From an uncultured Caulobacterales bacterium (lineage in GTDB: Bacteria; Pseudomonadota; Alphaproteobacteria; Caulobacterales; Maricaulaceae): 64,000 nt of DNA. Position numbers and translations under genes: made by a program. The notes below the pieces were generated by a model that was given only the letters and a program-made list of their open reading frames with translations, was not told where the DNA came from and did not search any database. Positions 30,252-32,822 of the stretch are shown here, piece by piece (the stretch's first letter is position 1; each line of letters opens with the position of its first letter). The stretch is taken from positions 248,001 through 312,000 of the forward strand of contig CANNER010000003.1 in NCBI GenBank assembly GCA_947503715.1, written 5' to 3'.

Positions 30252-31772
30252 GTGTCACTAGCTAGAGAGCTCAAGTTATCCGATAGCCCCTTTGAACATT
30301 ATGCCGCTGAGACAGAGCCAAAGATATCTCTATATGCCATTCGCCCACCGTATTTAGAGACGATATCTACAAGAGCTTTTAAACTTAATTCCTTTATCTT
30401 ATTTGGCGATAGAGGAGCCGGCAAAAGTGCTACTAGGATTACGATCTACAATGATATGTGGTCTGAAGGTGAATTTTCAGGAAACAAAGACCGCCCATTC
30501 ACAGTTAACATAACTGACTTTTCTCAGATACTGGAGACGTTCCAAAACAAAAAGTTAAAAGACATTGATATCGCAGGACTTGTTGCATTTTTTGTCATTG
30601 AGCAGGCGCTAGTGTGGCTTTCGTCGCTTGAATCTGCAGAGCGAGAGGTATTTATAGAAGCGCTTGATAAAGACGAGAAAACACTAAGTCTCGCACTGAT
30701 ACAAGGTTTTTACTTAAACGTTCCAGAAATGTCTCGAGATGTGTCGACTGGAAATGCATTAAAATTACTAAATAGCGCTTGGACGACTAAAAGTGCGGTA
30801 TGGATAAATAAACGATGGACTTCATTATCTCATATAGTTGCGACTGCAGTTGCAGGGTTATCTAAAAAATACGTAAATGAAGATGTAAACATCGCTCCGG
30901 CAGCTGAAAAAATTCTTGCTTCTTTGAAAGGGGAGGATGCAAACGTATCACGCGCAGTTCTTTCCAAACTTGTTGAGTTTGTTCAGATGTTTGGGTTTTC
31001 AGGAATATGTTTGCTAGTAGATAAAGTCGATGAAACTCCAATTACTGCAAATTCTGCAGAAGAAAGCGCTAAATTAATACATCCGGTCTTAAATCATATT
31101 CAATTGTTAGAAGTTGAGGGTTGTTCGTGGATATTCTTTTTATGGAGTAACCTTCAAAAGCATTTCAACGAAAAATTTCCCGTTAGACTAGATAAGATCG
31201 CGCATACTACCATCAAGTGGGAAATTGCACGTTTGAGAGAGATGATAGAAACAAGAGTTAAGTTCTTCTCTGATGGTAGGTTAGGTGTCGCAGATTTATT
31301 TGAAGAGGGCCACGATGTGGAAGCCACATTTACACAGTTGGTTTCACTGTCAATCAAGTCGCCTCGAGAACTTATCAAAATTTTAGATACTATTGTTCGT
31401 GAGCACGATGCGGCAGATAAGGGCGGCCTGCTTAATCAAGAAAGTGTTTCAGGTGGCGCTGACAAATATGTCGTAGAAACTATCGAAACTTGGTATCCGC
31501 GAAAGCACCTTCAACAAGTCTTACGCTTGGGAATGGTTTCATTTAACAATTCTGATGTTCTAGGAAAGTTCAAAATAAGCGGGCAAGGAGCTAGAGCTAA
31601 GATAAAATTTTGGGAAGATTTAGGTCTCGTAGCGCAAGATGGAACTATGGCCAGCGCAAAGGGCAACAAGCCAGTCAATAAATACATCGTCGCGGATACA
31701 AGAGTTATCAGAATTATTGATAGAAAGCTAAATGATATTGTAGGCGCAGATGTCGATGGTGAAATAATCTAA
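30252..31772 (+). CDS. P-loop ATPase, Sll1717-like; accessory gene
   Basis: A 506-residue cytoplasmic NTPase. Walker A is 'LFGDRGAGKSATR' (about residues 50-62) and a Walker B-like strand is 'GICLLVDKVDE' (about 251-261). The GDRG-GKS and VDxVDE pattern matches the family named after Synechocystis Sll1717. Function is unknown; distant KAP/STAND-type NTPases include antiphage proteins. A GTG at 30252, 8 nt after ACGGAGG, is the best start; a TTG at 30180 would add 24 residues without a ribosome site. Base composition is strikingly AT-rich and codon use differs from all neighbours, a sign of transfer. It is not linked to any other accessory gene, but the hairpin-rich region follows. Confidence 0.8.
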   Translation: MSLARELKLSDSPFEHYAAETEPKISLYAIRPPYLETISTRAFKLNSFILFGDRGAGKSATRITIYNDMWSEGEFSGNKDRPFTVNITDFSQILETFQNKKLKDIDIAGLVAFFVIEQALVWLSSLESAEREVFIEALDKDEKTLSLALIQGFYLNVPEMSRDVSTGNALKLLNSAWTTKSAVWINKRWTSLSHIVATAVAGLSKKYVNEDVNIAPAAEKILASLKGEDANVSRAVLSKLVEFVQMFGFSGICLLVDKVDETPITANSAEESAKLIHPVLNHIQLLEVEGCSWIFFLWSNLQKHFNEKFPVRLDKIAHTTIKWEIARLREMIETRVKFFSDGRLGVADLFEEGHDVEATFTQLVSLSIKSPRELIKILDTIVREHDAADKGGLLNQESVSGGADKYVVETIETWYPRKHLQQVLRLGMVSFNNSDVLGKFKISGQGARAKIKFWEDLGLVAQDGTMASAKGNKPVNKYIVADTRVIRIIDRKLNDIVGADVDGEII

Positions 31773-31872
31773 TCTGTGACTAAATTTAGCCGTCTTTGAT
31801 CGTTGTGGAGTTTTACTGTATTTTATATTAAATCAAACGCTGATTTACTATGGCGGCCTAACAATCTTTGAA

Positions 31873-32448
31873 ACAAGATAGGAAATCTTAGACCCGCAAA
31901 CGGAGACACCAGCGTTCGCTGAGCCCCCGTAACCTTCCTCCAAACATAATCCCCACCTTGCCCGACCTGCCCTATATTCAAACTCGTTCTGATGACGTGG
32001 ACAGGCAATCGATCGTGGTTTGTTGGTTATTGGACGTGACGACAGAATTTGACTGCTAGTCAAATTCCGAGGAACCGAACCGCATAGCGGTTCGGCACGA
32101 CACTGCAATCGACTCACGGGGTCGATTGCGGACGTTTTACGTGTGCCGGGTCTTTTATGGCGAGCGTTGACCGCCGGGCCTCGAACGGAAGTGTCTCTTA
32201 CGGGAGACGACTAGACGGAGGCGCGACTGCGGGACCCAGTGCATTTTGCTTTCAGCAAATTGCACGGACCATCATATCAAAAACCGCTGCCGCGTGGTCG
32301 TGCAATTGGCGTCAGCCAAATGCACCGATGCCTTTGCGAAACAAAATTAAAACTTCGGTATCCGGTAAGGGTATCGACCACGCGGACTGTCCGCCTTTTA
32401 CGGACATGCGCTATCCGGCAGACCCACAGAAAATATCCGGGGGCTGCG
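31873..32448. other. Hairpin-dense noncoding region, candidate structured RNA or DNA
   Basis: The gap 31773-32501 has no convincing gene but an unusual density of short perfect stems. Positions: 31875-31889 (AAGAT/ATCTT), 31910-31921 (CAGC/GCTG, GTTC loop), 32044-32068 area (10-bp stem, loop GCT), 32075-32095 (9 bp, triloop), 32105-32129 (9 bp), 32193-32208 (5 bp), 32239-32265, 32300-32325, 32356-32376 and 32388-32406. The 32239 and 32300 hairpins share a GTGCA/TGCAC lower stem, one internal mismatch and a small loop, while their upper stems differ by paired changes. An 11-bp long-range pair CCGCGTGGTCG (32290-32300) with CGACCACGCGG (32375-32385) encloses two of them. Strand and function are unknown. 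Confidence 0.65.
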
Positions 32449-32501
32449 AACGTTGACGCTTGGCCAAATATTTATATTTCAACTATAAGGTCTGAGGTCT
32501 T

Positions 32502-32822
32502 ATGCTACGTCTTTATATCGGTTTCGCCATAGCGGTTTATGTCCTGCTCATAAATTTTGTCGGCTACACCGCTTTCTTCGTGGATAAGCGCGCGGCGCAA
32601 AGTCGGGATCGACGGATTTCGGAGAGCACGCTTCTATTCATTGCACTGCTGGGCGGAACACTAGGATGCATCTGGGCGCAACAAAAATTTCGTCACAAAA
32701 CGCGTAAGCAACCTTTCAAACTTCAACTGCAAATAATTGTTGTGTTGCAAGTTATTACGATTTTCGCACTCGCCTTCCCCGATATACGAACTCTACTTTG
32801 GCAAACTCTTTTCTCCAACTGA
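32502..32822 (+). CDS. DUF1294 membrane protein
   Basis: A 106-residue inner-membrane protein of DUF1294, function unknown. It has an N-terminal helix (about 4-25), the conserved basic stretch 'FFVDKRAAQSRDRRISE', a central hydrophobic 'LLFIALLGGTLGCIWAQQ', the family signature 'FRHKTRKQPFK', and a last helix (about 77-95). Some larger relatives carry an N-terminal cold-shock domain; this one does not. It sits between the hairpin-rich region and the DEAD-box helicase gene. Confidence 0.88.
   Translation: MLRLYIGFAIAVYVLLINFVGYTAFFVDKRAAQSRDRRISESTLLFIALLGGTLGCIWAQQKFRHKTRKQPFKLQLQIIVVLQVITIFALAFPDIRTLLWQTLFSN

Follow-up and report, generated by a model that had tools for sequence, protein, structure and literature searches.

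The region from 31986 to 32450 of the window (the whole 64,000-nucleotide stretch of DNA analyzed here, from an uncultured Caulobacterales bacterium) carries, on its plus strand, a member of what is almost certainly a conserved, multicopy family of structured RNAs. The family has no counterpart in Rfam 15 or in the literature that we searched. The best explanation overall, to which we assign a probability of about 65%, is that the copies are dispersed, independent RNA genes that have their own promoters, form homodimers through a hairpin called P2, and act in trans.

An initial annotation of this region had described a run of stems and proposed that they might represent an undescribed structured RNA. 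All of the stems were found where it placed them. In the window sequence, these are a 10-bp perfect stem (32045-32054/32058-32067), two 9-bp perfect stems (32075-32083/32087-32095 and 32105-32113/32121-32129), two GTGCA hairpins with a single internal mismatch in each (32239-32265 and 32300-32325), and an 11-bp long-range pair (32290-32300/32375-32385), which is P7 of the RNA. When folding was compared with shuffled sequence, as the annotation had suggested, positions 31873-32470 had a lower fold energy than 100 of 100 dinucleotide shuffles on the plus strand (z -6.82) and on the minus strand (z -5.78). The suggested covariance-model search likewise found a family of homologues, whose paired positions change on both sides. 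With covarying stems in these homologues and no Rfam match, the proposal of an undescribed structured RNA is borne out.

At the gathering score, Rfam 15 gave no match in the window, and 10 loci carrying other copies gave none. A search of 31700-32560 against Rfam to E 5 gave four matches, of which none is credible and none is to OLE, ROOL, or GOLLD. A tRNA and tmRNA search found none. Literature searches on Litorimonas noncoding RNA, Hellea balneolensis RNA motifs, and multicopy structured RNAs did not turn up the family within their scope.

Distribution and copy number

A blastn search with the region against 60 relatives gave matches in 15 genomes and at 13 places in the window's own genome, with the query place counted. 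The matches split into modules corresponding to 31963-32036, 32037-32136, 32142-32297, and 32276-32392. The matched loci were fetched, and complete copies were collected from them. A covariance model of the 5' domain, called R1, was built from 34 sequences. Of 149 genomes searched with it, 25 contain the RNA, the own genome among them, and all belong to the window's own taxonomic family. The carriers are 13 of the 18 genomes of the genus, one of which (G001) has one weak match only, at 23 bits, and 12 genomes from four other genera.

Copies were counted at E 0.001, with few genomes per search and more candidates scored. Among the copies listed, 43 are in Litorimonas cladophorae (G013), 35 in the own genome, 12 in G015, 8 each in G003 and G028, and 5 in G034. 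The window copy (33 bits, with its stem-loop P3 replaced) lies outside the listed 35, which brings the total for the own genome to 36 or more. One contig was sampled over 464 kb and contains seven copies.

Six genomes of the genus are without clear carriage. Four of them gave no match to E 1, and G014 gave a single R1 match of 15.8 bits (E 0.77). Because the family is absent from 5 of the 18 genomes, namely G006, G007, G011, G014, and G017, and represented by one doubtful match in a sixth, it is dispensable in the genus.

Pattern scans gave 78 stretches in named genomes and 2 in viral contigs; by these scans, L. cladophorae, one Hellea metagenome-assembled genome (MAG), and six uncultured Caulobacterales MAGs carry the family. 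Of these stretches, 49 from named genomes and both from viral contigs were tested with R1, which matched 48. The exceptions are the two viral loci and a Verrucomicrobiota locus, and we treat them as chance.

A second subclass (L053, L210, L245, and L246) has another P3 and middle domain, of the GACGGTGTGCTTA type, and still has stem P0, the P2 palindrome, and the 3' domain. Four copies in G003 (L040, L073, L074, and L075) have RNA bodies that are 96-99% identical, with upstream similarity that ends between -1 and -74; this pattern might reflect concerted evolution or strong selection.

Conserved secondary structure

In the alignment of the 5' domain, 98.2% of cells are paired, 16 of 22 pairs have double changes, and the covariation score is 0.713, compared with 0.049-0.189 in slid controls. 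Mutual information over 88 cores pointed to helices beyond the 5' domain. For the resulting full core, represented by 49 sequences, 92.2% of cells are paired, 43 of 63 pairs have double changes, and the covariation score is 0.463 versus 0.060-0.108 in slid controls, over which the structure has an advantage in being partly derived from the same sequences as were scored. Also, the copies are mutually related, so these sequence counts exceed the number of independent events.

Pair cells of the 5' domain include 166 G.U and 2 A.C. This asymmetry identifies the plus strand as that of the RNA. The possibility of a folded DNA element, which the initial annotation had left beside that of an RNA, fits poorly with this bias and with the promoter-like block described below.

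R1 matches the window at 31986-32174 with 33.4 bits, and a profile of the D domain matches at 32276-32392. The 5' domain is closed by P0 (31988-31996/32026-32034; pairing in the window read from sequence), which corresponds to helix 1 of the alignment, with 98.1% of cells paired and double changes in 6 of 8 pairs. Within P0 lies P2 (32003-32023), a hairpin whose palindromic loop in the window has AUCGAU (32008-32013) overlapping CGAUCG (32010-32015). A candidate pseudoknot crosses P0, joining GGAC at 31999-32002 to GUCC at 32389-32392. All of its lettered cells pair, and it probably ties the core together, although covariation leaves it unproven because the two strands are nearly invariant.

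The 3' strand of P3 (GTGCCGGGTC; 32143-32152) was placed by alignment to other copies. It is followed by P4 and a variable middle domain (32154-32279), with P4 itself at about 32154-32160/32269-32279 as read from the window sequence; the core of P4 (helix 9) has 93.8% of cells paired and double changes in 4 of 4 pairs. The 3' domain is closed by P7 (32290-32300/32375-32385; helix 13), for which 100% of cells are paired and 4 of 7 pairs have double changes. Its apical hairpin, P8 (32300-32325; helices 14-15), is optional, being absent from 18 of 49 rows, and has double changes in 7 of 7 pairs.

P10 (32357-32363/32369-32375; helix 16) is weakly supported, as only 72.8% of its cells are paired. 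Across 101 copies (32357-32375 and equivalents), its 3' strand can pair locally or with the strand before GCGTAAAAC. For 90 distinct cases, the two competing pairings have mean energies of -7.1 and -8.7, compared with -4.4 and -6.4 for mismatched partners. A two-state switch is possible, but we do not claim one, because several copies are without one of the two pairings.

Predicted ends of the RNA

When 105 copies are aligned at a conserved GTTC, strong preferences appear upstream of it: T at -7 (96%), A at -11 (90%), G at -14 (79%), T at -15 (72%), and C at -33 (95%). An unusual ATCCNC lies near -35 in 76 of these copies. In the window, the promoter-like block is at 31949-31978 on the plus strand, with ATCCCC (31949-31954) in the -35 region and TATATT (31973-31978) in the -10 region; this -10 box is shifted one base upstream relative to other copies. 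The conserved spacing is that of a sigma-70 promoter from which transcription would begin with the G of GTTC. The RNA would then begin at 31986, behind its own promoter-like block. A scan of the window stretch with a plain sigma-70 consensus found no promoter. ATCCNC also recurs at about -112 to -57 upstream of some copies, where it is possibly an additional binding site of a regulator.

The 3' end was placed approximately, near 32450, by a tail hairpin (GGCAG..CUGC; 32417-32447) read from sequence. A loose pattern for this tail fits 39 of 107 copies. A terminator scan of the window stretch found a single terminator-like site, a number similar to that in shuffled sequence.

The window copy is a composite

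This region does not form a single unit. Although it does contain a structured RNA, positions 32037-32136 on the plus strand belong to a separate, inserted element, which we call B. This dispersed 100-bp element has three hairpins, the perfect stems at 32045-32129, and occupies the place of P3. B occurs alone at other places in the own genome, and partial matches to it exist in G014 and G006, which are RNA-less. It also stands in the place of P3 in L030 and L031 of G009, of which L030 is cut by a contig end. The window copy, then, has P0, the P2 palindrome (in DNA letters, ATCGAT overlapping CGATCG), P7, and P8, and retains the P3 3' strand beside B, but its P3 is replaced, and it may therefore be altered or inactive. 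Elsewhere, B was seen at L022, L023, L027, and L028; some solo copies directly follow gene stops, and L022 and L027 hold inverted pairs of B.

The two GTGCA hairpins had been interpreted as one structure kept by compensating changes. We instead regard them as two instances of an optional module. The module in the middle domain (32239-32265, plus strand) has counterparts in 27 of 112 collected copies, a set that excludes the window copy, at several places in the RNA. We rejected the idea that the GTGCA hairpin is a genome-wide REP element, as only two occur in 464 kb of the genome, both inside the window RNA. A short inverted repeat at 1051-1136 of the window recurs upstream of two RNA copies (L021, 1765-1804; L026, 1612-1648) and is another dispersed hairpin repeat.

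Genomic sites and mode of action

A quinone oxidoreductase gene (qor) lies downstream of an RNA copy in 6 of 16 qor loci (G000, G013, G012, G010, G008, and G002). The RNA is located between a pirin gene and qor in G000 and G012. In G013, pirin is further upstream; in G010, what precedes the RNA is no more than a pirin-like C-terminal stretch (42% identity); and the fetched stretches of G008 and G002 have no pirin. In G003 and G015, which carry the family elsewhere, pirin ends 38-39 nt before qor, and no RNA is present; in G004, the site has 318 nt and no RNA. A weak R1 match at the G003 locus (15.6 bits) lies inside the pirin gene, and we take it as noise. Judging from these sequences, the branch leading to the six species most likely acquired the qor-site copy, which was then kept. 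Filled and empty sites were compared at this site only, and the species are too diverged for junctions to be read.

The six qor-site copies retain P0, GGACAG, P2, and the 3' domain, and their middle domains differ. Their palindromes are AGCGCT, GAGCTC, CGATCG, TGATCA (in two genomes), and GACGTC. The content of the RNA at this site has most likely been replaced over time, through point changes or through conversion from paralogues.

A second site is adjacent to a DEAD-box helicase gene. In 21 helicase loci searched, an RNA is nearby in G000, G013, G010, and G008, and is inverted in G002. Weak matches were seen in G003 and G048 (12.9 and 9.8 bits). The remaining loci are without RNA, including those of the carriers G009, G016, and G015; at G005, a contig end truncates the locus. 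As the RNA is missing at this site in several carriers, we rejected the helicase as the regulated gene. In a tree of the helicase, the RNA-less G006 and G007 are nested among carriers with moderate support, which suggests that the RNA was lost.

The main rival to independent RNA genes is that the family is a selfish, non-autonomous mobile element, similar to MITE or BOX elements, whose RNA structure serves only its own spread. We consider this unlikely, yet it has the strongest claim among the alternatives. Copies are many per genome and show no constant orientation toward the gene downstream, and a published survey (PMC11109978) takes inconsistent orientation of a multicopy motif as a sign of a selfish element. 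The gain at the pirin-qor site, the RNA-less genomes nested in the helicase tree, and the lack of RNA beside the helicase gene in closely related carriers all agree with mobility. Against a purely selfish role, several species keep copies at orthologous sites that have retained both the fold and the palindrome. Moreover, copying through RNA would lose the promoter-like block, which lies upstream of the predicted start, although movement at the DNA level is still allowed. Candidate movers were also sought. RAYT (Y1_Tnp, PF01797) was found in 0 of 11 genomes of the genus, own genome included, and TnpB-type PF07282 in none of 18 genomes, a set that includes 11 of the genus. Reverse transcriptase is present in 4 of 11 genus genomes, one of them RNA-less. 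None of the three families, which were also those considered as partner proteins, tracks the RNA among the genomes searched.

It is improbable that the RNA is a cis-acting leader or exerts riboswitch-like control over the downstream gene. The RNA precedes qor in six genomes and the helicase gene, on the same strand, in four, and, among homologous neighbors, a shared gene is more often the downstream one than the upstream one. However, several draft contigs break off at the 5' side of a copy, so shared upstream genes would be undercounted. Both flanks are common to 8 pairs of copies between genomes, and one flank to 64. Among the 89 copies with a gene on each side, 49 share their strand with the downstream gene, and in 40 the two strands differ. 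Also, neighboring genes have mixed, unrelated functions, and no one gene class marks the placement of the RNA. This inconsistency of strand and function favors action in trans. The proximity to an Sll1717-like ATPase gene in the window, to which the initial annotation had tied the region, seems incidental, as other copies adjoin unrelated genes. A link to the direction of replication was considered through GC skew and discarded (43 of 92 positive; p 0.60).

A palindromic loop and probable homodimers

Among 39 distinct versions of the P2 loop, 33 are exactly self-complementary over at least 6 nt, compared with 16.7% expected by shuffling and 7.7% of 4209 other windows. If G.U pairs are allowed, 37 of 39 are self-complementary over this length, versus 37.4% expected by shuffling and 29.9% of other windows. 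The two exceptions (L094 and L095) have palindromes of only 4 nt. At the center of P2, 12 of the 16 possible palindromic tetranucleotides are present, 11 of them in loops with at least 6 nt, and five of the tetranucleotides are each seen in a single loop.

Six-base palindromes are usual at sites of DNA-binding or restriction proteins, but it is very improbable that P2 represents such sites rather than RNA kissing loops, given that one position holds many different palindromes, that departures at the hexamer's outer pair, among the 39 loops, comprise 4 G.U and 2 others but no A.C, and that the palindromes sit in a hairpin loop whose closing pair covaries (UA, CG, GU, or UG; helix 4).

Within a single chain, neighboring bases at the center of the loop are unable to pair, and pairing of the palindrome would therefore occur between two molecules. 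According to PMC12286853, OLE and GOLLD have symmetric kissing loops, inferred from palindromes that switch sequence. As the P2 evidence is of this published kind, we infer that the RNA quite probably forms homodimers through the P2 loop. It is a more tentative idea that dozens of paralogous RNAs sort into homodimer classes according to palindrome, with a self-recognition code that is remodeled at fixed loci and stays palindromic throughout.

Comparison with known systems

REP/BIME and BOX elements are intergenic, dispersed, and composed of modular hairpins. The family described here shares these traits, but it is larger, has a complex covarying fold, and carries a promoter-like block; also, RAYT proteins, sought for comparison with REP, were absent from the 11 genomes mentioned above. 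HEARO RNAs are present in many copies in some genomes. Like these and other OMEGA guide RNAs, exemplified by the 343-nt HEARO RNA of Limnospira maxima in PMC12286853, the present family consists of structured RNAs of about 300 nt. It has no Rfam HEARO match, however, and the search for an associated nuclease, which covered TnpB of the TnpB/IscB pair, found PF07282 in none of the 18 genomes.

OLE, ROOL, and GOLLD are, like our family, large structured noncoding RNAs. The switching of P2 palindromes, seen in sequence comparisons, parallels the case made for OLE and GOLLD, which have symmetric kissing loops. Unlike all three, the family has no match to their Rfam models, numbers between 5 and 43 listed copies in each of the six genomes counted, and has a promoter-like block. 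Phages and prophages encode ROOL and GOLLD, as stated in PMC12286853, whereas a single copy of our family (L049) used as query gave no match in phage and plasmid collections. The split of 49 same-strand and 40 opposite-strand downstream genes, unrelated to each other, distinguishes the family from riboswitches and leader RNAs, and it lacks a match to the Rfam models of group I and group II introns.

Proposed role

Under our preferred explanation of independent, trans-acting RNA genes, each copy would be transcribed from its own promoter, starting at GTTC, into an RNA of roughly 350-500 nt. This RNA would fold into a core of P0, P2, P3, P4, P5, P7, P8, and P10, probably tied by the GGAC/GUCC pseudoknot. 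Two molecules would dock through the palindromic P2 loop, like with like, and paralogues with different palindromes would form separate dimer classes. The RNA would work in trans, in a particle made of RNA alone or of RNA and protein, and not as a switch of the adjoining gene. New copies would arise through insertion into further intergenic sites, persist there across species, and be remodeled in place.

Natural RNA homo-oligomers are rarely observed, according to PMC12286853. With many palindromes at one loop, and several of them in a single genome, this family would make RNA self-recognition testable by natural variation. A complex structured RNA with tens of copies per genome, each with its own promoter-like block, is unusual. 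It raises the question of whether these bacteria have a host function that needs both dosage and variants, or harbor a selfish element whose RNA assembles.
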